Shown: one piece after another, positions 25,222-49,821 of the stretch | How positions within the stretch are numbered: the stretch's first letter is position 1 | How the letters are laid out: each line of letters starts with the position of its first letter | Source of the DNA: Nocardioides daphniae | Lineage (GTDB): Bacteria > Actinomycetota > Actinomycetes > Propionibacteriales > Nocardioidaceae | Direction: 5' to 3' | NCBI RefSeq assembly: GCF_004777465.1 | Contig: NZ_CP038462.1 | Location: 2,108,001 to 2,172,000, forward strand | DNA length: 64,000 bases | Program-made: the position numbers and the translations under genes | Notes under the pieces: model-generated | The model's database searches: none | Told to the model about the DNA's origin: nothing | What the model saw: only the letters and a program-made list of their open reading frames with translations

Positions 25222-26640
25222 ATGTTCGCGAATAGCGATGAGCTGCTCAAGTACATCAAGGACGAGGGCGTCGAGATGGTCGACGTCAGGTTCTGTGACC
25301 TTCCCGGCATCATGCAGCACTTCACCGTGCCGGCTTCCTCGTTCGACGAGTCCGTCTTCAAGGACGGGCTGGGCTTCGACGGGTCGTCGATCCGTGGGTT
25401 CCAGGCGATCAACGAGTCGGACATGAACCTGTTCCCGGACCCGTCCACGGCTTACCTGGACCCGTTCCGCGCAGCCAAGACGCTGGTCGTGAACATGTTC
25501 ATCCACGACCCGATCACCGGCGAGCAGTACAGCCGCGACCCGCGCAACATCGCGAAGAAGGCTCTGGCCTATCTCGCCTCCACCGGCATCGCCGACACCG
25601 CGTACTTCGCCCCCGAGGCCGAGTTCTACATCTTCGACCAGGTCCGCTACTCGACCGGCGTCAACGAGTCGTACTACCACATCGACTCCGTCGAGGGCTG
25701 GTGGAACTCCGGCAAGGAGGGCGACAACCTCGGCTACAAGACCCGGCTCAAGGGTGGCTACTTCCCCGTCGCGCCGTACGACCACTACACCGACCTGCGC
25801 GACACGATGGTCAAGAACCTCGAGGCGTCCGGCCTGCAGGTCGAGCGTGCGCACCACGAGGTCGGCACCGCCGGCCAGGCGGAGATCAACTACCGCTTCG
25901 ACACGCTGCTCAAGGCCGCGGACGACGTGATGAAGTTCAAGTACATCATCAAGAACACCGCATGGGAGGCCGGCAAGTCGGTCACCTTCATGCCGAAGCC
26001 GATCTTCGGCGACAACGGCTCGGGCATGCACGTGCACTCCTCGCTGTGGAACGGCGGCCAGCCGCTCTTCTACGACGAGACCGGCTACGGCGGCCTCTCG
26101 GAGATGGCCCGCCACTACATCGGCGGCATCCTGAAGCACGCCCCCTCGCTGCTGGCGCTGACCAACCCGACGGTCAACTCCTACCACCGCCTGGTGAAGG
26201 GCTTCGAGGCCCCGATCTCGCTGGTCTACTCCTCGCGCAACCGCTCGGCGTCGATCCGCATCCCGCTGACCGGCACCAACCCGAAGGCCAAGCGTGTCGA
26301 GGCCCGCTTCCCCGACCCGTCGGCCAACCCCTACCTCGCCTTCTCGGCGCTGCTGCTGGCCGGCATCGACGGCATCAAGAACAAGATCGAGCCGCCGGAC
26401 CCGATCGACAAGGACATCTACGAGCTGCCGCCGGACGAGATGGCCGAGATCGAGCAGGTGCCCACCTCGCTCGGTGCCGTCCTCGACGCGCTCGAGGACG
26501 ACCACGACTACCTGACGGTCGGCAACGTCTTCACGCCCGACCTGATCGAGACGTGGGTCGACTACAAGCGCACCCAGGAGATCGAGCCGGTGCAGGCGCG
26601 TCCGCACCCGCACGAGTTCGAGCTCTACTACGACATCTGA
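25222..26640 (+). CDS. glnA: Glutamine synthetase type I
   Basis: 472-residue GS-I beta-type enzyme (ATP-dependent ammonia to glutamate ligation, dodecamer). Motifs: [55 protein letters not shown], and the adenylylation-type Tyr in [11 protein letters not shown]. Strong ribosome site aggagg at 25212-25217, 4 nt before the ATG. Its last codons (..ELYYDI stop) are the attachment site for the downstream islands, and the coding end is preserved. No frame errors. Confidence 0.97.
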
Positions 26641-26641
26641 T
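26625..26641 (+). repeat. Attachment site att1 (glnA 3' end)
   Basis: ctactacgacatctgat, the last codons and stop of glnA plus 1 nt. The same 17 bp recur exactly at 33118, as an 18-bp upstream-shifted match at 34918, and 15/16 at 49806. This is the left attachment site of the island stack. Confidence 0.85.
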
Positions 26642-26652
26642 TCGCACAGTTG

Positions 26653-26690
26653 GCTGACCAGTGGTTTTGCGGCTACTGGTCAGCTGACCA
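26653..26690. repeat. Inverted/direct repeat cluster at the left end of element 1
   Basis: gctgaccagt (26653-26662) is inverted at 26675-26684 (actggtcagc), and gctgacca recurs directly at 26683-26690. Candidate excisionase or integrase accessory sites; the hairpin may also serve as terminator for glnA now that its own has been displaced. Confidence 0.55.
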
Positions 26691-26716
26691 GCGGAAACGT
26701 CGTTCGACGCTTTCCA

Positions 26717-27948
26717 TCAGTTTCCATCCGTGAGCGCCGTCTCGTGCGCCCAGGGTGCGCCAGTGCTAGACGCGGCCGCGTCGGGCCTCCGGCCCTGTCC
26801 GAGGGCCGTGTCTAGCGCTTGCCGCGCCTTGTCACCAGAGCTCGGCATCACATGGGTGTAGACCCTGAGCGTGAAGCCTGGATCGGCGTGGCCCAGGTAC
26901 TCAGACACCGCCTTGATGCTGACGCCGTGCTCCAACCACAACGATGCACAGGTATGCCGTAGCGCATGCATCCCGTTGTCTCGCTCGGCAACGAGTCCGA
27001 CGGCCTGTTGAGCAGGACGCCACACGGTTTGGTTGAAGTAGTTCCGGTTGAGCGGCTTGCCCTCACGACTGTAGAAGACCAAGCCCCGAGGGAGGGCGTG
27101 GTCCTGCGCTCCCCCGAGAGAGGCTGCAGCGACCCGAGATGCCGTTCGAGGTGTTCCAGGACCCAACCACCGACTGGAACCGAGCGCACACGTTGGTACT
27201 TCGGCAGAGCTGGAACCGGCTTGCCCGCCTCCAAGCGAATCTGTTGCCTCACATGGAGCGTTTCTGCAGCAGAATCAATGTCATGGACCCGGATACCGAA
27301 CGCCTCCCCCTGGCGGAGTCCGCAACCTGCTGCGACAGCTACGAGGGCGCGAAAGCGCTCCGGAACCGCGTCCACCATCCCGAGAACCTGCTCTGGGGTC
27401 CACGGCCGGACCGCCCGCGTGGGACGCGAAGGCAAGCGCACAGACGCGGATCGAGCAGGGTTCCGAGGAATCAAGCCGTCATCACACGCGCCTTGAAGAA
27501 TTGCGCCGAAGTTTGTCAGGAGAAGCTGCACGTACCGAGGTGCCAGCTCGTCGCTCAATCGCCTCAACCACCCCTGGATATCTGCTGGCCGGATCTGACG
27601 CAGCTCCCAGGCGCTCCACTGAGGCAGCAGGTGGACCCTGAGCCGCACGTCCATCGCCTCGCGGGTGGTGGGCGCAACGATCTGACGCTCCATCCATGTC
27701 ACGGCATAGTCCGAGAAACGAGAGCGACCCGCGTTCACGTCGATGTACTCACCGCGGTTGAGTTGCCGCTGGAGCTCTACAGCGAAGCGGTCGGCGTCCA
27801 CCTTGCGCTCGAACGACCGATTCCGCGATGCGCCTTCAAGATCCCGGTACCGCACTTGCCACCGCTGCCCCCGGCCGTAGCGCGGAGTCTTCGTTCGCTC
27901 CCCCGTCGCTTTGTCAACCGCCCACCAGCGGTCAGCCACCGACGCCAC
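26717..27948 (-). CDS. int: Tyrosine integrase of element 1 (one frameshift)
   Basis: About 410 residues of a phage-type site-specific recombinase. N-terminal arm-binding part (QRWQVRYRDLEGASRNRSFE), a core-binding SAM-like domain (FSDYAVTWMERQIVAPTTRE), catalytic Arg in AAGCGLRQGEAFGIR, HxxR in MHALRHTCASLWLEHG, and the late catalytic block YLGHADPGFTLRVYTHV with the nucleophile Tyr. One missing G in the five-base run near 27111-27115 splits it. The stop lies 76 nt from att1, as expected for an integrase acting on the adjacent site. It presumably targets the glnA 3' end. Confidence 0.9.
26744..26763. repeat. Arm-type repeat pair, left end of element 1
   Basis: GTGCGCC-cagg-GTGCGCC, two 7-mers at 11-bp period. 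The same layout recurs at 33039-33056 near the right end. Likely integrase arm-binding sites. Confidence 0.6.
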
Positions 27949-27951
27949 GAG

Positions 27952-28149
27952 TCAGCCCACCGCGCGGCACGCGGGGCTTTGGAGCCACGCAAGCACCGCT
28001 CGCGGGTCGTAGCGGCAATGACGGCCAACGCGAAAGAACGGCGGTCCCGTGCGCTTGTGATTCAGCTTGTAGAGAGTCGCCACCGGGATAGCCAGGAACT
28101 CAGCCGTCTCTTCCAAGGTCCACAGCCTCTCCGGAAGACCGCGGGTCAT
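27952..28149 (-). CDS. AlpA/excisionase-type helix-turn-helix protein
   Basis: 65 residues with a MerR-like winged helix: RLWTLEETAEFLAIPVATLY then KLNHKRTGPPFFRVGRHCRY and DPRAVLAWL. This is the usual small DNA-binding protein encoded just upstream of actinobacterial integrases and often acts as excisionase. Its ATG overlaps the rep stop as ATGA, and int begins 3 nt after its stop, so rep-xis-int form an operon. Confidence 0.85.
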   Translation of the reverse strand: MTRGLPERLWTLEETAEFLAIPVATLYKLNHKRTGPPFFRVGRHCRYDPRAVLAWLQSPACRAVG

Positions 28150-29164
28150 GCCATCACCCCGAGGCGCTTCTCTTGGAGCAAGGCAGCGAAGGCGCGCCCC
28201 GTCTCTTCTTCGTCCAACGCCAACTGTCGACCAACTCGCCTCATCGTCTGTTCGAGGTCCTCCGCTCCCAGCAGGGCGCCGCCCTGGCCACGTAGCCACG
28301 GAGTGCAGGCATGATGCGTCGCAGATCGCCTGCCACTGCGCCAGCGCGGACACGGTCAAGGCCGACAGCGCCTCCGCGCAGGGAGGCCTGTTGCACCTGT
28401 TGCCATTCCGCCGCAACGGGCCATCGGCTACGCGTCTCGTCTTCAGTCGGGATGCGGCAGGAGAGCCACTTCTCCGTGAGGTAGCCCCACAGCTCAGGCG
28501 CGTGCTCCAACGCCTGCTCGGGTTTGTCGATGCCGCATTCCTTGAGTACCTGGCGCCCAACCTGAAACTCAACCCGAAGTACCCGAGTCCCAGGGCGATA
28601 GGCGTCCCCCCACACGGACGGCCACCAGTCGGTGCCCTTCTTGGCAATCTCCGCCGTCTTGTCGTAGATCCGTGCCTTCACGGGCGACTTAGCCGACCCG
28701 AACATCAGCGTCTGCATCTCCGCGTCGTTCTCGTACATGACCGTCTGAGCGGATCTGGCAACGAAAGCGGCTCGATCCTCGGAGCTCAACAGCCACCCCT
28801 GAGAGTCCATGTAGACATCCAGCCGGGAGACCTTCCACTCCACGGCGCCAAGCAGCAGCTCCACAAGGTCGCGCCACCAGGACAGGGCCGCCTCCACGCC
28901 GACGGCGTGCAAGAACGCCGCTCGCGGCTGAACCTGAACCGTCGGAAGCGCGGCGCTCGTCGTGAGCCCCAGGAGTCCGTGCTGGTGCTCCAACCTAAAC
29001 GGATAGCGGTTCAGGGACGTGCCGGACACCTGCAACAACACTCCCCCGGCGTCCAGCAGCTCAGGCCTGCGAGTCTCGCGGGCCACTGCCTTGCTCTGTT
29101 CGAGGTCAGCGAGCAAGCAAGGCCGCAGAGATGACCCCGCGGCCAGAGAAGTACAACGAGTCAA
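28146..29164 (-). CDS. Rep-type replication initiator-like protein (one frameshift)
   Basis: About 340 residues. Features of the Rep_trans/replication initiation factor family: VEWKVSRLDVYMDSQGW (conserved R.D...D), KARIYDKTAEIAKKG, TRVLRVEFQVGRQVL. The frame ends early at 28241, but a one-base shift near 28285 (GYVGQGGALLGAEDLEQ) opens a C-terminus MRRVGRQLALDEEETGRAFA ending in LGVMA, whose stop overlaps the excisionase start as ATGA. That overlap is good evidence that the second frame is real. The TTG start at 29164 is uncertain. It could allow rolling-circle replication of the excised element. Confidence 0.7.
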
Positions 29165-29268: not shown

Positions 29269-29613
29269 CTAGTCCTCTTCCTGGCTCTGGGTCAAATACT
29301 CCGCAACGTCGATAGAAACCCCTGGCAGCGTGAACTCGTCAGGATGCTGTTTGAAGACCTTCCGGAAGGCAGCGACCTTGCGGAAGATCGATGAGCGGCT
29401 CATGCCTAGGCTCAGCAGACCCTCGAAGCCTCCGTGAAGCTGCCAGACCAGCCAGAAGCCAAGAAGGTCCGCGACGCTGTTCGCTGAGATGCTTCGAAGC
29501 CCGTCACCCACCGGCGTCCGCTCGATCAGCGGCTTCGTGATCACAGTGTTGACGGCCTTTGCGTACGCGTCCCAGGCGGCACGTGCCATCCCTTGACCTT
29601 CAGCGGACGGCAT
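29269..29613 (-). CDS. Hypothetical protein of the element (114 aa)
   Basis: 114 residues from MPSAEGQGMARAAW. Helical, with a helix-turn-helix-like stretch LGMSRSSIFRKVAAFRKVFK that suggests DNA binding, and a C-terminus EYLTQSQEED. It is transcribed toward rep and divergently from the type IV restriction gene (90-nt spacer). A regulator of the element or of its cargo would fit; not recognised as a named family. Confidence 0.6.
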   Translation of the reverse strand: MPSAEGQGMARAAWDAYAKAVNTVITKPLIERTPVGDGLRSISANSVADLLGFWLVWQLHGGFEGLLSLGMSRSSIFRKVAAFRKVFKQHPDEFTLPGVSIDVAEYLTQSQEED

Positions 29614-29690
29614 GCGCTCGGATCGGAAATCGTTCACCGGGACACGGTATCGACTTCCACCGACACTGACCGCATGACGGTCCAGACCGC

Positions 29691-29696
29691 TAGCGT
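29691..29696 (+). promoter_or_regulatory. -10 hexamer of leaderless promoter for the type IV gene
   Basis: TAGCGT ends 7 nt before the ATG at 29704. It supports that start over two upstream in-frame ATGs. Confidence 0.5.
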
Positions 29697-29703
29697 TCGG
29701 CCC

Positions 29704-31008
29704 ATGAGCCTGAAGGACATTACCCAGCCAAGAGCCGTCACGCAGGCGCTCAACGAGGCGCAGAAGCTTGGCCGCGCAGGGTTCCTCTCGAAGTACGGCT
29801 TCGGGAAGGCTCACAGGTACTTCGTCCTGTGGCAGGGCAGACACTTCGACTCGAAGGCGATCCTCGGAGCAGCCCACGGCTACCAGCACGGGACGCCACT
29901 CAAGCCGGCCGATTTCAGCGGCGGAGAGGACACCGTAGCCTCGCGTTTGCGAGCTCTCGGTTTCACTGTAGCTACCGACTCAGACTGGGTATACGACGAG
30001 GGTGACGTGACTCTTGGCAGCAACATTGCTCAGCGCTACGGGGGCAGCGACCAAGGCGGGATCCGTCCGTCCACCTCCACCCCGAACATCTTTCTCTTCA
30101 CCGACCCTGAAGAGGGCGTGAAGAGCGGCTACAACTTTGACCGCTGGGACGACGCGAATCCTGATCTGTTTCACTACACCGGCGGCGGCCAATACGGCGA
30201 TCAGAGCCTGAGCCATCGAAACGGATCCATCCTCAACCACGCGGAGGCCGGCCGTACCCTTCGCCTGTTCCACACCCTCGACTCGAAGAAGCGGCGGGGC
30301 GGCAAGCGCCAGGAGTACCTAGGTGCCTTCTACGTCGATCCATCGAACCCCTACCGCGGGGAGGACGCCGTCGGACGGGACGGCCTCATGCGCAAGGTGG
30401 TTGTCTTCCACCTGTTGAAGGACTCGGCCGCTCCAACGCCCGGCAAGAACACCGCTGGCCCCGAGCTCGCCAGCACGGCACCAACGGATCAATCCCTAGA
30501 GTCCGCGCCTGACAACACGCCAACGGGAATCCTCCCACCGGGAACCACTGTGGAGCCAGGACCGAACGCGACCAGGGGCGCGGACATCACCGTAATCGAC
30601 TCCGAGAACCACAAGGAGATGGAGTTTCTGGTCCCCGCTCAGGAAGCGACCATCGCCAAGAAGGTTGAGGCTGAGCTGGTGGAGGACTTCCAGTCTTGGC
30701 TTCAGGACCAGGGACACGCGACGCGTCGCGTGAGGATCAAGGTGGCTGGCGAGAAGTACACGCTCGTCACCGACACCTATGACGTGACTGCCAACCACCT
30801 CTTCGAGGCCAAGGCAAACGCGGACCGCAACTCTGTGCGCCTGGCCATCGGCCAGTTGATGGACTACATGCGCTTCATGCCCGAACCAGAACCCGAGGGC
30901 TACATCCTCCTGCCGGAAGCTCCCATCATCGATCTGGAGAAGCTGATCTTCGTGGCCGGCTTCGGATACGTGTACCCAGAGGGTGACGAGTGGATCTACG
31001 AAATCTGA
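29704..31008 (+). CDS. ScoMcrA-like modification-dependent restriction protein with PD-(D/E)XK-like C-terminus
   Basis: 434 residues. N-terminal head like that of ScoMcrA (KLGRAGFLSKYGFGKAHRYF, FDSKAILGAAHGYQ). Middle SRA-like domain: YGGSDQGGIRPSTSTPNIFL, FHYTGGGQYGDQSLSHRNGS, GRTLRLFHTL, YLGAFYVDP. After a Pro-rich linker (about residues 265-290) comes a nuclease-like domain with TLVTDTYDVTANHLFEAKAN (D...EAK) and RLAIGQLMDYMRF, the pattern of PD-(D/E)XK nucleases. ScoMcrA itself, which cuts phosphorothioate- or 5mC-modified DNA, carries an HNH domain at the C-terminus instead. The likely role is cleavage of modified foreign DNA; the modification sensed is unknown. Confidence 0.75.
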   Translation: MSLKDITQPRAVTQALNEAQKLGRAGFLSKYGFGKAHRYFVLWQGRHFDSKAILGAAHGYQHGTPLKPADFSGGEDTVASRLRALGFTVATDSDWVYDEGDVTLGSNIAQRYGGSDQGGIRPSTSTPNIFLFTDPEEGVKSGYNFDRWDDANPDLFHYTGGGQYGDQSLSHRNGSILNHAEAGRTLRLFHTLDSKKRRGGKRQEYLGAFYVDPSNPYRGEDAVGRDGLMRKVVVFHLLKDSAAPTPGKNTAGPELASTAPTDQSLESAPDNTPTGILPPGTTVEPGPNATRGADITVIDSENHKEMEFLVPAQEATIAKKVEAELVEDFQSWLQDQGHATRRVRIKVAGEKYTLVTDTYDVTANHLFEAKANADRNSVRLAIGQLMDYMRFMPEPEPEGYILLPEAPIIDLEKLIFVAGFGYVYPEGDEWIYEI

Positions 31009-31065: not shown

Positions 31066-32325
31066 ATGTACGAGCACAACCCGCCACCCACACCTCAACG
31101 CTTGCACGCTCTTTCCCTCACGCAATGGCGCCAGTTTGAAGACTTGGAGCTCGACCTAAGTCATCGCGTGACCATCTTGACGGGCGAGAACGGGACGGGG
31201 AAGACAACTCTGCTTAAATTGATAGGGAAACACTTCCAAGCCCCGTCAAGCTTTATAGCTTCCCCCAGACGGGAAGCCGATGGGACCATGAGTTGGCTCG
31301 CGGACCCGGACTCCAGATCAAACGAGCGCTCCGTGGGAACCTTCACCTATGGAACGGAGTCAGGACAACTAATTTCCGCGCCCGCTTTCATTCATTCAGC
31401 TGGAGTAAACCACAACGCCAACGTTCCCGCATTGCTTCCCGGAATCTTTATCGCGTCACACAGTCGCGTTGGAGCACACCACGGATACGGGGCAATTCCC
31501 CTAACTTTTCCCTCCACATCGGAGATCTTAGAACGCGGCAGAGGAGCTGCCGCCGTCCTCTTAGCAGGCGATTCGTACGGCGGCCCTACGATTCAATCGA
31601 CCATCAAGGAAACGCTCATTTCAGCCGCGATTCTCGGCTACGGGAATCAGGCGATGCAGCCAGATCCGAGGGCACTCGATATTTGGGTGAACTTCCAGGA
31701 GGTCCTCCGCTCTCTCCTGCCTTCGACGCTCGGATTTAAGCAACTTGCAATTGCACTTCCGGAGCTCATGATTGAGCGCGACGAAGGAGAGGCATTCCTA
31801 CTCGAAGCCAGCTCCGGTGGAATAACGAAACTGATAGAGATCGGATGGCTACTTTATCTCCAAAGTCTGGAAACCCCTGAGTTCACCGTGTGCATTGACG
31901 AACCAGAGAATCACCTCCACCCGAGCCTTCAACGCACCCTGCTGCCAGGACTACTCCGGGCCTTTCCAGGGGCACGCTTTATCGTCGCGACACATAGCCC
32001 GTTTGTAGTAACCGCCTCACCCGACGGGCATGTATACGCCCTCGAGTACGAGGAGGGGTCGGTGCAAGCAAGATCCCTTGACTTCCGCGGCAAAGCTGCC
32101 AGTGCCGACGCCACATTGCGCAGAGTCCTTGGCGTGCAAAGCACCATGCCAGTCTGGGTAGAGCAGCGTCTGTCCGAGGCCCTTAACAGGGCGGCCACAC
32201 AAGGCTCGACACAATCGCTCCTATCCCTTCATCGCCAAATGAATGAGCTGGGCCTCAACGACGAATTCCCCGCTACCCTAGAATCTCTCAAAGAAATCGC
32301 TGAGGCTCGCGATGAGGAAGATTGA
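31066..32325 (+). CDS. ptuA: Septu-type defence ATPase (PtuA-like)
   Basis: 419-residue ABC/RecF-type ATPase: Walker A TGENGTGKTTLLK near residues 38-50, Walker B FTVCIDEPENHLHP near 270-283, and the H-loop IVATHSPFVV. It overlaps by 14 nt the HNH gene that follows, the gene pair that defines Septu (PtuA ATPase with PtuB HNH nuclease). Codon use and A/T content differ clearly from the chromosome, consistent with transfer. An OLD-like stand-alone ATPase is the alternative, but the HNH partner favours Septu. Confidence 0.75.
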   Translation: MYEHNPPPTPQRLHALSLTQWRQFEDLELDLSHRVTILTGENGTGKTTLLKLIGKHFQAPSSFIASPRREADGTMSWLADPDSRSNERSVGTFTYGTESGQLISAPAFIHSAGVNHNANVPALLPGIFIASHSRVGAHHGYGAIPLTFPSTSEILERGRGAAAVLLAGDSYGGPTIQSTIKETLISAAILGYGNQAMQPDPRALDIWVNFQEVLRSLLPSTLGFKQLAIALPELMIERDEGEAFLLEASSGGITKLIEIGWLLYLQSLETPEFTVCIDEPENHLHPSLQRTLLPGLLRAFPGARFIVATHSPFVVTASPDGHVYALEYEEGSVQARSLDFRGKAASADATLRRVLGVQSTMPVWVEQRLSEALNRAATQGSTQSLLSLHRQMNELGLNDEFPATLESLKEIAEARDEED

Positions 32326-32950
32326 GCGGTCATCCAAGCCGGCCACGTTGGTCAAAAACTCAGACCTTTGGACTGAGAATTATCTTAACGCCGTCAAAGG
32401 TGCGAAGAAAGATCTTCCCACCCCATGGAAGCATCCGGAAATAAGGTCGGCCCTAGAGGGCGACACGTTCAAAAAGTGCGCTTACTGCGAAGTGCTTATC
32501 AGCGACTGCGCGTACGCCCACATAGAGCATATCGAGCCCAAGTCCAAAGTCCCATCCAAAGTGGTCGAGTGGGAGAATCTCACACTGGCGTGCCCGCGGT
32601 GCAACCAAAACAAGTCAGACTATTATGAGCCTCAGGAACCACTACTCAACCCCTATGCTGATGAACCCAACGAGCACTTGGAGTTCTTAGCCGGCGGCGT
32701 GTACGCGCGCCCAGGGAGCTTGCCCGGTCGAAGAACCGTACTTCATCTGGATCTCCAACGTGCCGATCTTCTGTGGTCACGCATGACTGTCTTTGAGTCC
32801 TTCAAGCGACTTCTTCGCCTTTGGGAGGAGGCCGACGGCGAAGACAGGCAACTGGCGGCACTAGAAGTTGGCCGAATGCTTCACCCAACAAATGAGTTCA
32901 GCGCCTTCCTAGTAGCCGAAGCCCGACGGGTCAACTTCCCCGTTACTTAG
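32312..32950 (+). CDS. ptuB: Septu-type HNH nuclease (PtuB-like)
   Basis: 212 residues with a zinc-stabilised HNH motif: KKCAYCEVLIS, HIEHIEPKS (catalytic His), WENLTLACPRCNQNKSD. Translation is probably coupled to ptuA by the 14-nt overlap. Its predicted job is nucleic-acid cleavage once the ATPase senses infection. It is the last gene of element 1, 167 nt from att2. Confidence 0.8.
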   Translation: MRKIERSSKPATLVKNSDLWTENYLNAVKGAKKDLPTPWKHPEIRSALEGDTFKKCAYCEVLISDCAYAHIEHIEPKSKVPSKVVEWENLTLACPRCNQNKSDYYEPQEPLLNPYADEPNEHLEFLAGGVYARPGSLPGRRTVLHLDLQRADLLWSRMTVFESFKRLLRLWEEADGEDRQLAALEVGRMLHPTNEFSAFLVAEARRVNFPVT

Positions 32951-33038
32951 CCACGGGGTGGGCGGGAAGCGCCCCTCCACACTTCGCTCCGCTCAGCGCG
33001 GAGCCTCTGCGCACCCGAGAATCCCACCCACCCCTCCC

Positions 33039-33058
33039 GTGCGCCCACCGTGCGCCGG
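33039..33058. repeat. Arm-type repeat pair, right end of element 1
   Basis: GTGCGCC-cacc-GTGCGCC, same sequence and 11-bp period as the left-end pair at 26744, about 60 nt before att2. Confidence 0.6.
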
Positions 33059-33117: not shown

Positions 33118-33134
33118 CTACTACGACATCTGAT
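33118..33134 (+). repeat. Attachment site att2
   Basis: 17 bp identical to the glnA end at 26625-26641. It separates elements 1 and 2 and is followed by tgatccacg, which also follows att4. Confidence 0.85.
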
Positions 33135-33148
33135 CCACGCCTGAACCA

Positions 33149-33195
33149 CGAAAGGGCCTCTGACCTGCAGGTATGCATGATCAGGGGCCCTTTCG
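33149..33195 (+). terminator. Terminator behind att2
   Basis: 10-bp stem cgaaagggcc / ggccctttcg extended by a partly paired region, ending in ttt. It would serve as the glnA terminator when element 1 is absent. Confidence 0.65.
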
Positions 33196-33213
33196 CTTGG
33201 GCTCTGGAGGCCC

Positions 33214-33235
33214 AAATACCGCAGGAATACCGCAG
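33214..33235. repeat. Left end repeat of element 2
   Basis: ATACCGCA-gga-ATACCGCA inside a 22-nt sequence that recurs at 34896-34917 with two differences. The 7-8-mers repeat at 11-bp period, as in element 1. Confidence 0.65.
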
Positions 33236-33312: not shown

Positions 33313-33660
33313 GTGGTCGATATCGAGGCGAACCTCAACAGGTTCCTGGGTACGCGCGAGCCGACGCTGCGCTATGCATCGTTCGACTACTGCTTCAACT
33401 ACTTCCAGTCCCACAGTCAGGACCCGGGCCGGCTGGTCACCTCCGGAGGCTTGGAGACAAGTTGCCTCCAACTTGGCTTCTACCTCGCAAGTTGGGGCAT
33501 GCTGCGTGGATCCTCGGCCCTGCTCTGGCGTAGTTCGAAGCACCTCGTGCCGCTCGTCGATCTGATCGCCAACGACCTCGACTACCTCTGGGGGTTGGAT
33601 GTCGATGGATACGACGCAGAAACGATCGCCAAGCTGTCGGTTGCTGGCGAAGGTAAGTGA
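33313..33660 (+). CDS. Unknown protein, first gene of the element 2 module (115 aa)
   Basis: 115 residues. The core RYASFDYCFNYFQ followed by LETSCLQLGFYLASWGMLRG then SSALLWRSSKHLVPLVDLIA is distinctive and probably a conserved alpha-helical domain; I recall similar hypothetical proteins of about 200 residues, in which case this copy is short at the C-terminus. No catalytic motif seen. The GTG start is fixed by the -10 hexamer. The PIN-like gene starts 6 nt after its stop, so the two are co-transcribed and probably act together. Confidence 0.6.
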   Translation: MVDIEANLNRFLGTREPTLRYASFDYCFNYFQSHSQDPGRLVTSGGLETSCLQLGFYLASWGMLRGSSALLWRSSKHLVPLVDLIANDLDYLWGLDVDGYDAETIAKLSVAGEGK

Positions 33661-34875: not shown

Positions 34876-34895
34876 GCCAGTCTGCTGCCCCCACC

Positions 34896-34917
34896 AAATA
34901 CCGCAGGGATACCGCAA
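34896..34917. repeat. Right end repeat of element 2
   Basis: Near copy (20 of 22) of 33214-33235, ATACCGCA-ggg-ATACCGCA preceded by aa, directly abutting att3. Confidence 0.65.
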
Positions 34918-34935
34918 CGAGCTCTACTACGACAT
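34918..34935 (+). repeat. Attachment site att3
   Basis: cgagctctactacgacat, identical to 26619-26636 of glnA. Read in frame with the next bases it encodes ELYYDI and a TAG stop, the GlnA C-terminus with synonymous changes. It is therefore a replacement glnA tail, not a random match. Confidence 0.8.
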
Positions 34936-34979
34936 TTAGTCACTTGTGCACGTAGAGCTCGAGCTCAACTGATTCGAGT

Positions 34980-35010
34980 ACGAGGGCTCCGGCGTCGCCG
35001 GAGCCCTCGT
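34980..35010 (+). terminator. Terminator behind att3
   Basis: 14-bp perfect stem acgagggctccggc / gccggagccctcgt with a gtc loop, 40 nt after the TAG of the att3 glnA tail. Confidence 0.75.
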
Positions 35011-37359: not shown

Positions 37360-37360
37360 A

Positions 37361-40499: not shown

Positions 40500-40551
40500 G
40501 GTACCCCCAAGCCGTAGGTGCGAGAGTCTGCGCGGCGATGGCACTGGACGA

Positions 40552-41718: not shown

Positions 41719-41879
41719 ACGGTGCTCCTCACCCACTCGCCGACCTTGATGCTTGCGTACACCAACTCACAGTGGGCTTCGGAGGGCGGGCCCGTTTCGC
41801 CGTGGGAGTCTCAAGCACTCTTCGGGGAACGCGATACTTTGTTGTAGAGCAAACCGGGAGCGACCGACAGGGGCAGCAC

Positions 41880-44246
41880 GTGACCACCGATGCGACCGAT
41901 GGCTTTGTGCGTGTCCGCGGTGCCAATGAGAACAACCTGCGCAACATTGACGTGGACATTCCTCGCAACGTGATGGTGGCGTTCACCGGGATCTCTGGGT
42001 CGGGGAAGTCGTCGCTGGCCTTCGGAACGCTGTACGCCGAGGCGCAGCGCCGCTACTTCGAGTCGGTCGCGCCCTACGCGCGCCGGCTGCTGCAGCAGGT
42101 CGGCGCCCCGCACGTCCAGGAGATCACCGACCTGCCGCCTGCGGTCGCGCTTCAGCAGCGCCGGGGCGCGGCCACCTCGCGCTCGTCGGTCGGCACCATC
42201 ACCACGCTGTCCAACCTGCTGCGGATCCTCTACTCGCGGGCCGGCGACTACCCGGCCGGCGCCCAACACCTCGCGGCCGAGGCCTTCTCGCCCAACACCG
42301 TCGCTGGCGCGTGCCTGCGCTGCCACGGCCTGGGCGTCGTCCACGACGTCACCGAGGAGCTGCTCGTCCCGGACCCGTCACTGAGCATTCGTGAAGGGGC
42401 GATCGCCGCCTGGCCGGGCGCGTGGCAGGGCGCCAACCTGCGCAGCATCGTGATGGGGCTCGGCATCGACGTCGACAAGCCGTGGCACAGTCTCAGGAAG
42501 CGGGACCGCGACTGGCTGCTGTTCACCGACGAGCAGCCCTCGGTGCTCATCGAGCCGGAACCAGGTCGCGTCGACCACGGCTACTACGGGAAGTTCTGGA
42601 GCGCGCGCAAGCACGTCATGCACGTGCTGGCCGACTCCACGAGCGAGCGGATGCGCGAGCGAGCCGGGCGGTTCGTGGAGGAAGCGCCCTGCCCGGACTG
42701 CCAGGGCAGTGGACTGCGGCCCGAGGCCCTCGCGGTGACCTTCCGCGGGTGTTCGATCGCCGAGGTCAACGACCTACCCTTCACAGCGCTGGTGGCTCTG
42801 CTGCGTCCGGTCGCTGAGCGGCCCGCGGGTGCCGACGAGGTCGCGGCGCGGATCTGCACTGACCTGGTCGCCCGCGTCGAGGTGCTACTCGATCTGGGCC
42901 TGGGTTACCTCAGCCTGGGACGGAACTCGACGACGCTGTCGCCCGGAGAGGCGCAGCGCCTGCGGATCGCCACCCAGCTGCGTTCGGGTCTGTTCGGAGT
43001 CGTCTACGTCCTCGATGAGCCTTCCGCCGGCCTGCACCCGGCCGACGCGGAGCCGCTGCTGGATGTCCTGGACCGCCTCAAGGCGTCCGGCAACACACTG
43101 TTCGTCGTGGAGCACGACCTCGACGTCGTACGACGAGCAGACTGGGTCGTCGACATCGGCCCCGGTGCGGGCGAGGCCGGAGGCCGAGTGCTCTACAGCG
43201 GCCCTGTCGCGGGCCTCGAGGATGTCACGGAGTCGGCCACCAGCGCCTACCTGTTCGGTCGCGCCGAGCGGCTCGTGCACGACGCGCGCCCCCCGCAGGG
43301 CTGGCTGCGGCTGGACGGAGCAAACAAGAACAACCTGCGCGACCTGTCCGTCGACATCCCGCTCTGCGTCCTGACCGCCGTCACCGGGGTGTCCGGCTCC
43401 GGCAAGTCGACCCTGGTCACCCAGGTCCTGGCCGAGGACCCGACTGCCCTTGAGTCGTTCGACCGACTGGTACTAGTCGACCAGCGCCCGATCGGCCGGA
43501 CGCCGCGGTCCAACCTCGCGACGTACACGGGGATGTTCGACGCCGTGCGGAAGCTGTACGCCGCCACGGACGCGGCCCGGGCCCGCGGCTACGGCGCCGG
43601 CCGCTTCTCCTTCAACGTCCCCGCGGGCCGGTGCGAGACCTGTCAGGGCGAGGGTTTCGTCTCCGTCGAACTGCTCTTCCTGCCTGGCACCTACGCACCA
43701 TGCCCGACGTGCCACGGCGATCGCTACAACTCCGAGACGCTCGAGATCACCTACCGCGACAAGAACATCGCGGAGGTCCTCGCACTGACCGTCGACGATG
43801 CCGCGACGTTCCTCGCCGACGTGCCGGCCGCCGTACGCAGCCTTCGGTCGCTGCGCGAGGTGGGCTTGGGCTATCTGCGACTGGGACAGCCTGCGACCGA
43901 GCTGAGCGGCGGTGAGGCACAACGCATCAAGCTCGCTACCGAGCTCCAGCGCGCGCACCGAGGCCATACGCTCTACCTGCTCGACGAACCCACCTCAGGA
44001 CTGCACCCCGCCGACACCGCGCTCCTGCTGCGTCAGCTGCACCGGCTAGTCGACGCCGGCAACACGGTGGTTCTCGTCGAGCACAACCTCGACGCGATCG
44101 CCACAGCCGACTGGGTCATCGACCTCGGCCCGGGCGGAGGAGACGCCGGCGGTCGGGTCGTCGCGACCGGCACGCCGGCCGACATCGCGAGGGCCGAGGG
44201 CAGCGCGACCGCGCCCTACCTCTCGCGGCGGCTCGAGCGGACATGA
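41880..44246 (+). CDS. UvrA-like ABC ATPase (UvrA2 class)
   Basis: 788 residues, shorter than the usual 950 or so of UvrA, in line with UvrA2/DrrC-type proteins lacking parts of the UvrB-binding region. Two ABC modules: [20 protein letters not shown] and [15 protein letters not shown]; signatures [15 protein letters not shown] and [15 protein letters not shown]; Walker [15 protein letters not shown] and [13 protein letters not shown]. Zinc-finger cysteines in [16 protein letters not shown] and CETCQGEGF...CPTCHGD. UvrA2 proteins are linked to tolerance of DNA-damaging drugs. The GTG start at 41880 follows the family N-terminus ([19 protein letters not shown]). Confidence 0.9.
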
Positions 44247-44341
44247 GCTGGGTGCGGGCGGCCGGTGTGCCGTCAGGCTGCCGCGCGGGTTCGGAGGCAT
44301 CACGCCAAGAAGAATCCGTAGATGTCATGAAAGATGAAGGC

Positions 44342-44634
44342 ATGACTGTGTATCTCGCTTGGACCTCGGAGAACCTGCCTGACCTGGAGGGGCGTGGCAC
44401 GAGGCTCGGCTTGTGGCGCCCGGGCTGGTCGCCGTGGACAGCACCGAATCGCTGTCAGCGGTCTATCACGCCATCAAGTGGTCCCTGGAGGGTGAGGCTT
44501 CGCTGATCGTGGTCCCCGTGCACCAGACGCCCAAGTCGCGGGGCATGGCTGCTGGCACCACTAGGTGGTTGCGTCAGCGGACTGCAAGGCAACCGCCCGG
44601 TGCGAACATCCGGGGCGTCACGTCATCCGATTGA
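44342..44634 (+). CDS. Small hypothetical protein (about 97 aa, one frameshift)
   Basis: Reads MTVYLAWTSENLPDLEGRGT in one frame and LVAPGLVAVDSTESLSAVYH then AIKWSLEGEASLIVVPV in the next, joined by one missing base near 44403-44408. Together they make a compact alpha/beta protein with a plausible uninterrupted fold, so I take it as one small gene. No family name known to me. It lies 95 nt after uvrA2. Confidence 0.5.
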
Positions 44635-45110
44635 GCTGTCCAGGCTCCCAGACCACGAGGGCTGCCAGGTTGGCTCTCCCATCTCAGGGAACGAGGATTC
44701 ACATAGGTGGGTGATGGACACGGGAAGATTGAGACCGGGGAGCGGCGCCCGCAACCGGGAAGACCCCGCGCGGACGCCCCTGCCCCGGGGACGCCGCCCG
44801 ATCAGCGAACCTCAGTTGGCGTAACCCGACCTCGAGTTCGCGCCGAGCGTGCTGCGTGTCGCAAGACCAGTCCAGACGACGCGTCCGCCTGGGAACGGAG
44901 CGACAATGGGCACGTAGTTCACGCTCAAGGCAACGTCGTCGCAGCGGCGCGACCGCACATCGGCAGGACCGCGCATTCAGCGGCATGAGCGGCCACGCTG
45001 TGCCGTACTAACAGCGGCTACTTGTTTCCTTGACCGCGGGAACGGTGCTGGCGAGTGTCGGTCCTGGTGCCTGGCTCGTCGCTCTCGCTGCCCACGCTGC
45101 CCACGCTGCC
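44635..45110. other. Intergenic stretch before a tandem repeat
   Basis: About 470 nt with no supported gene in either strand; open frames here have arginine-rich random composition. Ends in short repeats (cccacgctg twice at 45091-45108) leading into the 33-bp tandem repeat. Confidence 0.4.
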
Positions 45111-45242
45111 CGGTGACGGGCCCGTGTGGCAACGCAGCGGGCCCGGTGACGGGCCCGTGTGGCAACGCAGCGGGCCCGGTGACGGGCCCGTGTGGCAACG
45201 CAGCGGGCCCGGTGACGGGCCCGTGTGGCAACGCAGCGTGGC
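45111..45242. repeat. 33-bp tandem repeat, four copies
   Basis: Unit begins cggtgacgggcccgtgtggc and continues aacgcagcgggcc; copies start at 45111, 45144, 45177 and 45210 and are identical except the end of the last copy (from 45239). Each unit contains the palindrome gggccc, and gcccggtgacgggc can fold. Not inside a supported gene; it lies behind the stop of the 45301 gene, so multiple hairpins could act as terminator. Confidence 0.85.
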
Positions 45243-45300
45243 GTTGCGTCGCGACCTGGCGACGGCTCGGCGGGGCGCGATCGTCTCGTGCGTTGGCGGA

Positions 45301-45612
45301 CTACGGGAGCTTGGACGCGAGGACGTCGGCCGGCAGGATCTCGGGTGCTGCGCTGAGGAGGTGCTGGTTGGCCATCAGGGCTGCGACGATGGCGCCGTTG
45401 GCGTGGGCGTCGCGAGCGGCCTCGTCGGGGAATGCATCGAAGATCCAGAAGGTGTCGGCGTGGGTCCTGACCGCGAACCAGACAATCGTTCCTACTTCTT
45501 CGTTGGCGAGCGCGACAGCGCCGGCGAGCAGATCGGCGAGCGCGTCGTGCTGTCCATCGGCCGCGACGATCTTGGCGACGAAGGCATACGGAAGTGATGC
45601 GGGTGCAGACAT
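45301..45612 (-). CDS. ABM-type small protein, paralogue of 36491-36793
   Basis: 103 residues: YAFVAKIVAADGQHDALADL, TIVWFAVRTHADTFWIFDAF, RDAHANGAIVAAL, C-terminus LPADVLASKLP. Same fold and same closing SKLP motif as the earlier copy. Divergent from the GlxA-type regulator (108 nt), which probably controls it. It may detoxify or modify a small redox-active compound. Confidence 0.78.
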   Translation of the reverse strand: MSAPASLPYAFVAKIVAADGQHDALADLLAGAVALANEEVGTIVWFAVRTHADTFWIFDAFPDEAARDAHANGAIVAALMANQHLLSAAPEILPADVLASKLP

Positions 45613-45707
45613 GAGGGGTTCTCCTGGGTGTCGAGGTTTCTTGGTGAAGCGAGTTGAGCCTATGACGAGCAAGGGCATGTGAGAAGTGGCGTATACGGCA
45701 GTATTGC

Positions 45708-45713
45708 TATTGT
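45708..45713 (+). promoter_or_regulatory. -10 hexamer of leaderless glxA-like promoter
   Basis: TATTGT ends 7 nt before the ATG at 45721. Confidence 0.5.
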
Positions 45714-45720
45714 TCGCGCC

Positions 45721-46662
45721 ATGCGTATCGGACTGATCGCGATCGACGGCTGCTTCGGTTCGGCTGTCGCGTCGCTCATCGACATCGTGCGGGTGGCCGA
45801 CGGAGCCCGCGGCGATGTCGACCCGCGGATCGAGCCGATCGAACTCGCCATCCTCGGACCGAAACGGAGAGTGACCACGACGGCATCGATGACCCTGTCG
45901 GTGGACCACCCGCTGTCGGAGTCCGCAGAGTTCGACGTGGTCGTCGTCCCTGCGCTTGGAACCCTCACGGCCGCCGCTACCCACGACGCCCTCCAGAGCC
46001 GAGATGTTCGTTCGGTCATCGCCTCGCTCGGGCGCCTCGACGAGGCGACCACCCGGATCGCCGCGGCGTGCACCGGCGTGTTCGCTGTCGCCGAGACCGG
46101 ACGGATGCATCATCGGCGGGCGACGACCAGCTGGTTCCTGGGGCCGGAGTTCCTGAAGCGCTATCCGACCGTCGCCCTCGATCTCGACACCATGGTCGTG
46201 GTCGACGGGAACCTCGTCACCGCCGGCGCCGCGTTCGCCCACATTGACCTCGCGCTCTCACTCGTGCGATCGATCAGCCCCGACCTGGCCCAACATGTCG
46301 CCAAGCTCCTCATCATTGACGAGCGTCCGTCGCAGGCGGCCTTCGTCGCCTACGAACATCTCCGGCACGAGGACCCGATCGTCGTCGAGTTCGAACGCTT
46401 CGTGCGCGCCCGCCTGGACGAACCGTTCAACGTCGCCTTCGTCGCGCAGTCGCTCGGCACCAGCCGGCGCACCCTCGAACGACGAGTCCGTGCGGCGCTC
46501 AACCTCACTCCGCTCGGCTTCGTCCAACGGCTTCGCATCGAACGAGCTCGGCACCTCTCAGCAACCACGGACCTCACCTCCGCCGAGATCGCGCTACGGG
46601 TCGGCTACGCGAACGCCGAGACTCTGCGCTCCCTCCTGCGCAGGGAGCGACGCCGTTCCTGA
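45721..46662 (+). CDS. GlxA-type regulator: DJ-1/PfpI domain plus AraC helix-turn-helix
   Basis: 313 residues. N-terminal amidotransferase-like domain (MRIGLIAIDGCFGSAVASLI, FDVVVVPALGTL, IAAACTGVFAVAETG with the elbow Cys) and C-terminal AraC domain (FNVAFVAQSLGTSRRTLERR, LTPLGFVQRLRIERARHL, SAEIALRVGYANAETLRSLL). Such proteins sense small molecules and activate adjacent genes; the divergent ABM-type gene is the obvious target. The start is supported by the -10 hexamer. Confidence 0.87.
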   Translation: MRIGLIAIDGCFGSAVASLIDIVRVADGARGDVDPRIEPIELAILGPKRRVTTTASMTLSVDHPLSESAEFDVVVVPALGTLTAAATHDALQSRDVRSVIASLGRLDEATTRIAAACTGVFAVAETGRMHHRRATTSWFLGPEFLKRYPTVALDLDTMVVVDGNLVTAGAAFAHIDLALSLVRSISPDLAQHVAKLLIIDERPSQAAFVAYEHLRHEDPIVVEFERFVRARLDEPFNVAFVAQSLGTSRRTLERRVRAALNLTPLGFVQRLRIERARHLSATTDLTSAEIALRVGYANAETLRSLLRRERRRS

Positions 46663-47201
46663 CCTATCGCCATGCCTGTAGCCGGTGTCCTAGTGCTCGA
46701 CTGGAACCACCTCTCAGCACGTCGAGTCGACGCTTCTGCATCGCTCCTGGACGACCCACTCGACACGCCCGCAGCACAGGCCATGTGACGTGTCCCGGCT
46801 TCCCGGACGGTCGGGGTTGGGTGGCTGTGATGTCGCTGCGTTCTCGTCGAGGGGGTCAGCAGACTCGATCAGGGTCGATTGGGATGAGACGCGAAGGCGA
46901 CCGGGGCGGCCGAAGCCGGCCGGCGGGGTAGCGTCGGTCACGTCGAGGTCTTTTGGATGGATGGCGTAGGAACCTCCATCGTCGGGAGACCTCGGCGTCT
47001 ACCTGCGGACCGACGCGCCCGGCCGACCTACACCCTCATCTGGGAAGAGCCGAGTAGTTGCTTCGCACTGTCCGGTGGGTGCCCTGCGCCGCGGCGAGGC
47101 TTTCGCGAGTGACCATGCACCGACCGTCGTGGACGCGTTCGTCTGAATCGAGCGTCCCGTCCTCCACCAGGCGCTCCACGACGGCAACCGTCGTGCCGAG
47201 T
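46663..47201. other. Intergenic stretch left of the IS3 scar
   Basis: About 540 nt. No convincing gene on either strand. Likely insertion-sequence debris or old intergenic DNA. Confidence 0.4.
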
Positions 47202-47392
47202 GAACCGCCCCGGCAAGTCCGGAGACCCCGTTCCTTGGGAAGGATGGAGTCATGTCAGGGAGTACGTCGAAGAGGTACCCGGCCGAGCTGCGTGAGCGGG
47301 CGGTCCGGATGGTCGTTGAGATCCGCGCCGACCACGAGTCGGAGTGGGCAGCGATGGCCAAGATCGCCGAGTTGCTCGGACTGACGGACTGA
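47202..47392 (+). mobile_element. IS3-family remnant: left terminal repeat and truncated orfA
   Basis: The sequence tgaaccgccccggcaagtcc at 47202, continuing cggagacc, matches the terminal repeat style of IS3-family elements. It is followed by an ATG at 47252 and 46 codons reading MSGSTSKRYPAELRERAVRM then AMAKIAELLGLTD, the helix-turn-helix start of the IS3 OrfA transposase, after which the frame ends at 47392. OrfB and the right end are missing. Not functional. Confidence 0.75.
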
Positions 47393-47495
47393 CCGCACCG
47401 CTCTGGTGTCGATTCCATGACCCGCTTCTTCTCCATTCCGCCTTGCGCGCTGCACGGTCGACAAGTCTCGTCGCCGGCGCTGCCCTTGGGTCCCG

Positions 47496-47501
47496 ATATG
47501 C
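47496..47501 (+). promoter_or_regulatory. -10 hexamer of leaderless nhaA promoter
   Basis: TATGCT ends 7 nt before the nhaA ATG at 47509. Confidence 0.5.
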
Positions 47502-47508
47502 TTCGCGC

Positions 47509-49353
47509 ATGACGAGTGGGCAGATGGAACGGCGCACTAGTTGGCGAACGATTCGCACGGAGTCGGGTGCGGCTGTGCTCTTGGTCGTCGTCGCAGTGGT
47601 CGCCTTGCTCTGGGCGAACTCGCCACTCTCCGAGTCCTATTTCGGGCTGTGGGATGTCGAGATCGGGTTCAGTGTCAGCGGGTTCGGCCTGCACATGAAC
47701 CTGCACCACTGGATCAACGACGGCCTCATGGTGGTCTTCTTCTTCGTCGTTGGCCTCGAGGTGCGACAGGAGTTCGCGCATGGGTCGCTCCGAGACGCCA
47801 GCCGCGCGCGTCTCGCGTTGATCGCTGGCGTCGCTGGCGTGGCACTGCCCGCAGTTTTCTACATCTTGATCGTGGCCGCCGCGGGCGGCGACGGGCTCGG
47901 TGGATGGGGCGCGGTGGTCGGTACCGACACCGCGTTCCTGTTGGGTGCCCTCGCACTCTTCGGCCCGAAACTCTCCGGCCAGTTGCGGGTGTTCCTACTC
48001 ACCCTCACCGTTGTCGATGACTTCCTCGCCGTCTCCATCATCGGCATTGTCTACAGCGACGAGATCCGGCTCATTCCGCTGCTGATCGCAGTTGCTTGCC
48101 TCGCCGGGTTGTGGCTTCTGGGTCGTTCGCGGCAATGGAGCGCCACACCGTACGTGCTGCTTGTCATTGTGCTCTGGTTCGCGACCGTTGATTCCGGAGT
48201 CCACGCCTCCCTCGCGGGCATGGTCGCAGGACTCCTTATCCCCGCCTACCCGACACGTCGGCACAAGGTGGTCGCGGCTCGTCAGCTGTTCCGCGACTTC
48301 TGGCAGTCGCCGAGCGCGGCATCGGCCCGCGCAGTCGATCGAGGCTTGGCGCGAGGTATTTCGGTAAATGAACGCATGCACGAGGTCTTGCGCATGCCGA
48401 CCGCGCTCGTCATCGTCCCGATCTTCGCGCTCGCGAACGCTGGCGTCGACCTGCGCGGCGGCGTGCTCGTCGATTCCTTCCAGTCCTCCGTGACGTGGGG
48501 AGTCATCGTGGGTCTCGTGCTCGGCAAACTTCTCGGCATCGGTCTCGCCACCTTCGTCGCTGTGAAGCTTGGAGCCGGTCGGCTACCCGAGGGTGTCGGG
48601 ATGGGCAGCGTGTTTGGCGGCGCGGCACTGTCGGGGATCGGGTTCACCGTGTCGCTCCTGGTGATCGGCCTCGCGTTCGGCTCGACGTCCGACCTGGGTC
48701 GGCAAGCGACCGTCGGCGTGTTGGTCGCGATGGTGCTCGCTACCGCGCTTGGTTGGCTTATTTTCCGGGTTGCTGCGAAACGCTTGGGAGAGGAGACGGC
48801 AGATCTGCCGATGGTGCTCACACCACCCGTTGATCCTGAAGTCGACCACATCCGCGGACCAGAGGACGCCCAGCTCACGCTCGTCGAGTACATCGACTTC
48901 GAATGCCACTATTGCGCGCACGCAACGGGTTCCTGGGAGGACCTTCGCAGCCGGTTCGGGGATGATCTCCGGTATGTCGTTCGCCAGCTGCCACATCACC
49001 CTCACGGCCCCATAGCCGCACGAGCGTCGGAGGCGGCATCGAATCAGGGGATGTTCTGGCCGTGGCTGGACTTCGTCTTCACGCGGCAAGATGCGCTCGA
49101 GCGCGAAGATCTGATCCGCTACGCCGAAGAGCTGGGCCTGGATGTCGCCCAGTTCACGGCTGACCTCGACAGTGCCGCCGTACGTGCCCGGGTGGAGCGG
49201 GATCTCGAAAGCGCCGATGCAAGCGGGGCGCACGCCACCCCGACGTTCTTCGTAGACGGCCGACGGCTGCTGGGTAGCTACGACGCTCGAACGCTCACCT
49301 CAGCCCTCGAAGCCAGCCGCCGAGGCACACGAACCCAGGAAGTGCGCTCCTGA
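47509..49353 (+). CDS. nhaA: NhaA Na+/H+ antiporter fused to a DsbA-like thioredoxin domain
   Basis: 614 residues. Residues 1 to about 420 are a complete NhaA: LLVVVAVVALLWANSPLSES, FFFVVGLEVRQEFAHGSL, GTDTAFLLGALALFG and the ion-site pair TVVDDFLAVSIIGIVY. From about residue 440 a soluble thioredoxin-fold domain follows, with VEYIDFECHYCAHATGSWED (CxxC as CHYC) and the cis-Pro loop SGAHATPTFFVDGRRLLGSY. This NhaA-DsbA fusion is known in actinobacteria. It suggests redox sensing or thiol chemistry coupled to sodium/proton exchange. Intact, single gene. Confidence 0.92.
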   Translation: MTSGQMERRTSWRTIRTESGAAVLLVVVAVVALLWANSPLSESYFGLWDVEIGFSVSGFGLHMNLHHWINDGLMVVFFFVVGLEVRQEFAHGSLRDASRARLALIAGVAGVALPAVFYILIVAAAGGDGLGGWGAVVGTDTAFLLGALALFGPKLSGQLRVFLLTLTVVDDFLAVSIIGIVYSDEIRLIPLLIAVACLAGLWLLGRSRQWSATPYVLLVIVLWFATVDSGVHASLAGMVAGLLIPAYPTRRHKVVAARQLFRDFWQSPSAASARAVDRGLARGISVNERMHEVLRMPTALVIVPIFALANAGVDLRGGVLVDSFQSSVTWGVIVGLVLGKLLGIGLATFVAVKLGAGRLPEGVGMGSVFGGAALSGIGFTVSLLVIGLAFGSTSDLGRQATVGVLVAMVLATALGWLIFRVAAKRLGEETADLPMVLTPPVDPEVDHIRGPEDAQLTLVEYIDFECHYCAHATGSWEDLRSRFGDDLRYVVRQLPHHPHGPIAARASEAASNQGMFWPWLDFVFTRQDALEREDLIRYAEELGLDVAQFTADLDSAAVRARVERDLESADASGAHATPTFFVDGRRLLGSYDARTLTSALEASRRGTRTQEVRS

Positions 49354-49805
49354 GTCGTCAGGCGTCGCGGGGCGCGTCGGTACACCTGTCCGAGCGAACA
49401 AGAACACCCGATGGCAGGGCGCTCGTCGCCCTCGACAGCGCTGGCGCGGGAATGTACCTCCCCGTTGCGGCTCTTTTCCTCATCCCAGTTCGCGGATTCT
49501 CGGTTGCGGACGCGGGCCTCGCATTGGACATCGGGGCAGGCGTCGGGACTGCTGTTCCCCGTGCTCGCCGGGACGCTGGTCGACCGAGTTGGCCCTCGCA
49601 GGGTGATCGGCACCGGACAGTTGCTCCGAGCCATCGCGATGCTCGTCTACCTACTCGTACCCGGGTGGCCCGGGGCGATTGCCGGGAGCGCGATCTGCGC
49701 CGCCGGAATGCAGCTGCACTACGGATCGCTATACGCCTTCCTGACAGCATTGCGTCCCAGCGACGGGTCTCACGATGCGCAGGTCAGCATGGGTCAGTCA
49801 GTCAG
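49354..49805 (+). pseudogene. MFS transporter N-terminal fragment cut by att4
   Basis: Reads GMYLPVAALFLIPVRGFSVA in one frame and LLFPVLAGTLVDRVGPRRVI then GTGQLLRAIAMLVYLLVPGW in another (one extra base near 49535), the first three or four helices of a major facilitator transporter with the RVGPRR loop after helix 2. The gene stops abruptly at att4, so the rest was left elsewhere when the element moved or recombined. Confidence 0.7.
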
Positions 49806-49821
49806 TACCACGACATCTGAT
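49806..49821 (+). repeat. Attachment site att4, right border of the stack
   Basis: taccacgacatctgat, 15 of 16 to the glnA end. Downstream ccacg is shared with att2. It marks the return to chromosomal DNA; the hairpin behind it is the best candidate for the original glnA terminator. Confidence 0.75.

Follow-up and report, generated by a model that had tools for sequence, protein, structure and literature searches.

What does it mean that the last codons of a gene are found several times, one copy behind another, along the same chromosome? We addressed this question at glnA of Nocardioides daphniae, in a stretch of 64,000 nucleotides (NZ_CP038462.1, positions 2,108,001 to 2,172,000; hereafter the window) that had been annotated from its sequence alone. 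Here glnA (25222–26640, + strand, encoding 472 amino acids) is followed by three segments, elements 1, 2 and 3, which are separated by copies of its 3′ tail. The initial annotation had proposed repeated integration at one site. Our analysis supports this proposal, as the segments have ends of their own, the core is confined to this locus and the arrangement recurs in the genus. Three elements have very probably integrated serially at the 3′ end of glnA, and sequence comparisons make it most likely that this end is an attachment site for tyrosine integrases that is used in Nocardioides.

The attachment core corresponds to the last codons of glnA. The 17-mer CTACTACGACATCTGAT was found exactly at 26625 and 33118, with three mismatches at 34924 and with two mismatches at 49805. 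When up to three mismatches were allowed, the window contained five matches against 0.03 expected, a number reached in none of 100 shuffles; the fifth match (23867, − strand, two mismatches) lies upstream of glnA within a different reading frame. The copies, all on the + strand, are glnA's own tail at the left end of element 1 (att1, 26625–26641), the boundary between elements 1 and 2 (att2, 33118–33134), that between elements 2 and 3 (att3, 34919–34939) and the outermost copy, TACCACGACATCTGAT (att4, 49805–49821). As had been claimed, att3 still encodes ELYYDI-stop, reading GAGCTCTACTACGACATTTAG, and the positions given for the three downstream copies were correct. Each element is thus flanked on either side by a direct repeat of the target end, and the core-to-core lengths of 6.49, 1.81 and 14.88 kb agree with the 6.5, 1.8 and 14.9 kb reported initially. 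In the whole 3.56-Mb genome, the pattern TAYTACGACATHTRR occurred three times, always within the window, and its reversed control did not occur; this count leaves out att4, which has TACCAC. The concern that the att copies might also be present at unrelated places was not borne out, since the near-exact core was not found elsewhere in this genome.

Every tail copy is followed by a hairpin that is terminator-like in its sequence (26649–26688, 33149–33196, 34980–35010 and 49837–49876, all on the + strand, for att1 to att4, with z-scores of −3.9, −5.2, −4.6 and −6.9), which extends to att1 what had been noted for the downstream copies. The hairpin behind att4 is perhaps an older glnA terminator, and its sequence TGATCCAC is also found 3′ of glnA in 4 of 20 outgroup genomes (G042, G044, G049 and G055). 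No Rfam family matched the region 25000–51000 at gathering thresholds. The boundaries differ in what accompanies the core. Element 1 carries a tandem repeat beginning with CGTGCGCCCA on its left (26743–26763) and right (33038–33058) sides, and element 2 carries one beginning with CCAAATACCGCAGG (33212–33235 and 34894–34916), all on the + strand. Element 3 starts with a module composed of TCACTTGTGCACGTAGAGCTCG and the att3 hairpin (34940–35010, + strand) and stops with the right end GCGCAGGTCAGCATGGGTCAGTCAGTCAG (49777–49805, + strand); its left side has no such repeats, and its right end is shortened, the outer repeats being missing. By analogy, the tandem repeats may be integrase arm sites. 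Separate integrations predict that each segment has its own ends, and the distinct repeats and family-specific ends fit this prediction. Another candidate for an integrase arm, CTGACCTGC behind glnA, was rejected because it also stands behind glnA in outgroups such as G044, G048 and G056.

The only integrase in the window lies in the element next to glnA, as had been stated, but it is split over two overlapping frames on the − strand, with the change near 27085 as worked out from the coordinates. The C-terminal part (26717–27166, PF00589) is 77% identical over 122 aa, and the N-terminal and central part (26848–27948) 61% over 288 aa, to an integrase linked to glnA in genome G008. The latter belongs to the closest relative of element 1 that we found, a 5.5-kb element behind glnA with an intact integrase and its own tail copy at 5.5 kb. 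Starting at the left end, the DNA of the two elements is 67% identical over 3 kb, and by eye their remaining genes differ. Phage integrases were about 30% identical to the G008 integrase among the matches listed, and a circular Streptomyces record with a 46% identical integrase contained no glnA-tail core.

We then asked how widely the site is used. The gene itself was found in all 36 same-genus relatives (78–93% identity). In a survey of 215 genomes of the genus, which includes the present one in the counts of end sites, TAYTACGACATHTRR occurred 298 times in 204 genomes according to the per-genome table, and at least twice in 76; the reversed control gave seven single matches. In 15 of the 76 genomes the matches lie on both strands; draft assemblies are common among them, and the single-contig cases G095, G132, G013 and G183 may be due to chance. 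A direct scan behind glnA, mostly over about 16 kb and in three cases over 1.6–8.6 kb, detected a second tail copy in 7 of 35 relatives, the 36th (G030) having given no tail. The integrase model matched 102 of the 215 genomes at 1e-40. Among the 30 best matches, which include three source sequences of the model itself, 24 had a tail copy within 1.5 kb, and in 16 of those the copy was glnA itself. In G151 (contig C1, 229860), a core resembling the glnA tail was also found on a contig different from that of glnA; its distance to an integrase of this clade is about 80 bases.

Element 3 has no integrase according to the integrase model, and its ends proved to be those of a family. The left end TAG-TCACTTGTGCACGTAGAGCTCG was found at 15 sites in 11 genomes and the right end GTCAGTCAGTAC at 22 sites in 22 genomes of the survey, with no match for either reversed pattern. 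Fourteen named contigs with the right end comprised 11 from Nocardioides, one Pimelobacter and one Propionibacteriales metagenome-assembled genome, and one from Janibacter terrae. The two ends recur as pairs in other Nocardioides, and 16 complete units of 2.8–37.6 kb could be delimited, 12 from the exact left-end sites and four from a relaxed scan; the three remaining left-end sites (G071, G138 and G143) had neither a right end nor an integrase in the 20–28 kb read. A 6.3-kb unit in G059 is the 17th. Since none of the 17 complete units encodes a glnA-type integrase, its lack in element 3 is a family trait; two of the 16 share one distant tyrosine recombinase of 303 aa. Only 4 of 120 pairs of units have at least 300 bases in common, namely G031/G127 (83% over 1.3 kb) and the three pairs formed by G005, G128 and G161, in which one unit with 91–96% identical cargo is present in three species. 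The tandem repeat GTTACAA-N4-GGTACAAA (0–3 mismatches) precedes the right core by about 70 bases in 16 of the 17 units, the sole exception being element 3 of the window. On the left side, this repeat was present at both ends tested of the integrative and conjugative element (ICE) type (+142). None of the 17 units has it there, their best scores (5–7 mismatches) being at background level (4–8).

The same right end terminates a larger resident. In G127, the first right end lies 100 kb from glnA, and the intervening DNA encodes an integrase, a helix-turn-helix (HTH) protein, a TrwC relaxase and a TraG-type coupling protein, together with a T2SSE ATPase, SSB and a ParB-like protein. The unit thus combines the integrase, relaxase and coupling protein that characterize an ICE; two further proteins taken for VirB4-like gave no Pfam match. 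Its 33-base right end is identical to that of the small units behind it, and it has the right-side tandem repeat. Further junctions follow at 339039, 341879 and 347106, with a decayed one at 384708 and the last right end at 419479. The integrase-less array unit of 35 kb between the latter two (contig C2, 384708–419479) encodes CobN, CobQ and ThiC above the NCBIfam cut-offs. Inside the ICE-like element, at about 309387–312568 of the same contig, lie three adjacent tyrosine recombinases, which we take to resemble a recombinase-in-trio element. G031 has a similar array with two additional altered junctions, and in G079 glnA is adjoined by a small unit and, beyond it, an ICE-type left end at the contig stop, so that the stacking order in G127 and G031 is the opposite of that in G079. 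In Janibacter terrae, which presumably belongs to another order, the genes preceding the right end resemble those of the G127 element by eye.

These ends bear on a reading compatible with serial integration, in which element 3 and the units like it are decayed ICEs, that is, classic cis-mobilizable elements (CIMEs), that no longer move. Such units have the right end of the ICE, the outer repeats are missing from the copy in the window, and CIMEs are defined in this way in the part of the literature drawn on here (PMC5704250). Against decay speak the conserved left module (TAG-TCACTTGTG), which is unlike the ICE left end and free of repeats in 17 of 17 units, the absence of a glnA-type integrase from all of them and the occurrence of one unit at 91–96% identity in three species. 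We regard decay as quite possible, if somewhat short of an even chance.

Several observations weigh against serial integration and were considered together. The search for an empty site, a check proposed in the initial annotation, was unsuccessful: no site with the window's right flank was seen in the stretches read, which covered the glnA 3′ sequences of 30 genomes and the gene content of five, with G002, G035, G018 and G009 read further. G002 has one gene in common with the window flank at a similar distance. In each of G035 and G018, the genomes closest to the present one by glnA, the tail pattern matched once, and the 40 kb around their glnA gave no blastn match of at least 150 bases to window positions 26641–64000, the exception being 222 bases of G018 at lower stringency. 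The putP gene beside att4 was found in 7 of 59 genomes (own genome included, E 1e-120), and the right flank may therefore be foreign too. No excision product was seen; the sole integrase of the window is interrupted, and no further match to the integrase model at 1e-40 exists in this genome, where all three elements are now probably immobile. At six of the 30 best integrase loci, a nearby tail copy is missing. As for the surroundings of glnA in general, glnE, which G008 had first suggested as the immediate neighbor, was discarded, as it lies instead near glnA2; in the genus, the distance from glnA to glnE varies between about 15 kb (G023) and about 250–270 kb (G031 and G003), and it is about 4–20 kb in several outgroups but 40–100 kb in others.

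The remaining objections concern element 3, which is composite and has lost its outer arm-like repeats. G022, G064 and G123 contain its first 9.9 kb at 96–97% identity, remote from glnA in the first two and on a contig other than that of the tail copies in G123; in all three genomes a right-end-like sequence and an altered core precede the block, and in G064 a resolvase-like gene lies near it. Part of its cargo, a block with an AraC/GlxA-type regulator (45227–47051), has 96–98% DNA identity to at least 16 other genomes, is found close to a right end of the glnA type in G021 and 2–3 kb behind glnA in G059 and G088, and seems, from this distribution, to spread on its own. Together, these two blocks indicate that element 3 is composite and that its DNA also moves by other routes. 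In addition, G147 (86% over 2.1 kb and 81% over 1.5 kb) and G088 (98% over 1.8 kb) have DNA related to element 3 no more than 15 kb from glnA; over the 36 and 20 kb read in these genomes, respectively, the tail was not seen a second time. The initial annotation had asked whether the segments are ordinary syntenic chromosome in relatives. No synteny was found, the pieces in G147 and G088 being scattered and in an order unlike that of the window, yet this is not a clean absence either. Our confidence in serial integration was lowered because of these two genomes, and it was partly restored by G059, in which the first 6.2 kb of element 3 (97% identity) are contained in the complete 6.3-kb unit, which is bounded by both ends and located 35 kb behind glnA. 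A related point concerns composition. The DNA behind glnA had been described as foreign-looking, which holds for elements 1 and 2 (GC content 55–65%, against 68–77% in the 25 kb upstream of glnA), but element 3, with 64–71%, is not clearly foreign by this measure.

A single entry of one composite element, made up of three modules with internal tail copies, could also have produced this arrangement. Whole accreted tandems can transfer, according to the part of PMC5704250 drawn on here, and the block in G022, G064 and G123 retains a junction of right end, core and left end. However, the repeats or family ends differ between the segments, ends of the element 3 type bound lone units directly behind glnA in G005, G028 and G151, and the G008 relative of element 1 closes with its own tail copy. 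We therefore consider a single entry improbable. A homologous or slippage duplication at glnA without any integrase, for which the shortness of the core, the broken state of the only integrase and the related cargo behind glnA in G147 and G088 without a second copy might be cited, is very hard to reconcile with the copies examined, which end at one core and have only about 13–21 bases in common with glnA, with repeats at fixed distances from that core and with the tail copies near 24 of the 30 best integrase matches.

If serial integration is the correct reading, the events may have been as follows. The core of each element equals the last codons of glnA, so that an insertion would leave the protein intact. 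It would give the gene a new stop codon, 3′ untranslated region (UTR) and hairpin, and may thereby affect glnA termination, while the previous ending would remain at the distal boundary. As each new insertion took place at the core nearest to glnA, earlier elements would be pushed outward, which would also set their order of arrival. Stacked in this way in the window would be a defence-carrying mini-element, an integrase-less element of 1.8 kb and an integrase-less unit of 14.9 kb, the last from a family that has its right end in common with an ICE-like element linked to glnA. In the weakest step, the ICE integrase would most likely be what moves the integrase-less units, whether in trans or through accretion. 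An extension of this idea, which we regard as speculative and rather unlikely, is an open-ended cassette platform behind glnA, on which units of 2.8–38 kb would be loaded in trans by a glnA-specific ICE integrase. The left side of such a unit would be a 3′-UTR/terminator module of glnA and its right side the integrase arms of the ICE type. As the units are one-armed, a circular unit would present an attR-like site and recombine with the attL of a resident ICE, so that stacking would be built in.

The remaining genes of the window's elements are mostly cargo. In element 1, the integrase is followed on the − strand by an HTH_17 protein (27952–28149) that may have an excisionase-like role, a Rep_trans-like protein (28241–29164) matching below the Pfam cut-off and a small protein of no family (29269–29889), to which a stretch of the G008 element is similar by eye. 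The HTH and Rep-like neighbors are, we presume, features reminiscent of actinomycete ICEs (AICEs). On the + strand, a protein at 29593–31008 resembles type IV restriction enzymes (PADLOC mREase_IV, 3.8e-16), but the match covers only residues 42–128. It is followed by a PtuA-like ATPase (31066–32325, PADLOC 6.3e-115) and an adjoining PtuB-like HNH protein (32312–32950, 5.4e-59), the pair that constitutes a Septu system in terms of gene content.

Element 2 encodes two + strand proteins, neither of which matched integration or transfer genes in Pfam. The first (115 aa, 33313–33660) had no match in Pfam or PADLOC. The second (402 aa, 33667–34875) belongs to a family without a Pfam match or a name, with 90 homologs among 8000 scored candidates. 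YLDQ and other residues, acidic ones among them, are invariant in an alignment of 24 rows, and the family looks PIN-like by eye. The predicted structure has a mean pLDDT of 89.9, and a comparison with the sequences of solved structures gave a single match (E 0.08). In G207, the sequence 3′ of a tail copy is similar to the left end of element 2 (80% over 124 bases), and in G170 the resemblance is weaker. The cargo region of element 3 (35011–49776) includes an FAD oxidoreductase, a DJ-1/PfpI protein, a Zn-dehydrogenase, a GGDEF-like regulator, LtrA, a UvrA-like protein, an AraC-type regulator and an NhaA-thioredoxin protein; Pfam revealed no integration or transfer genes among the 10 proteins tested.

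AICEs mostly target tRNA genes. Like them, the elements described here are actinobacterial and have tyrosine integrases, and tandem arrays at a shared site are discussed in the part of an AICE survey drawn on here (PMC3218068), which mentions neither glnA nor Nocardioides. AICEs further have an FtsK-like Tra protein, whereas Pfam detected no FtsK/SpoIIIE-like protein among the eight of element 1. In Dehalococcoides, islands stand in tandem at ssrA with copies of the gene's end as their boundaries, and about half of them have no integration module (16 of 31 with and 15 without it; McMurdie 2011, PMC3146451); the latter were suggested to be cis-mobilizable. Their target is a tmRNA gene and their recombinases are serine enzymes. 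At glnA, by comparison, the target encodes a protein, the integrases are of the tyrosine type, one resident resembles an ICE, and the units lacking an integrase share a conserved left end on which no arm-like repeats are present. ICE/CIME accretion, on which the primary work was done in Streptococcus, likewise brings an ICE and integrase-less units with att ends together in one stack at the 3′ end of a gene, and units of this sort fall under the CIME concept; CIMEs retain attL and attR (PMC5704250), whereas the units of element 3's family have arm-like repeats on one side only. In the open-licence literature searched, we did not find glnA as an integration target, its genus-wide use or a unit family with an armless left end; one paper mentioned glutamine synthetase, but solely as a control for PCR.

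Together, these results suggest that elements land at a central nitrogen-assimilation gene across many genomes of one genus, with its 3′ end and terminator replaced at each insertion, and that element 1 is a defence island among the accessory islands behind it. Whether one-armed, integrase-less units integrate in trans, and how the swap of the 3′ UTR affects glnA expression, have become testable questions, and the two short end sequences provide a handle for listing accessory islands in Nocardioides. If the platform idea were true, the locus would be a gene-capture system comparable to the integron, for whole operons up to a cobalamin pathway.

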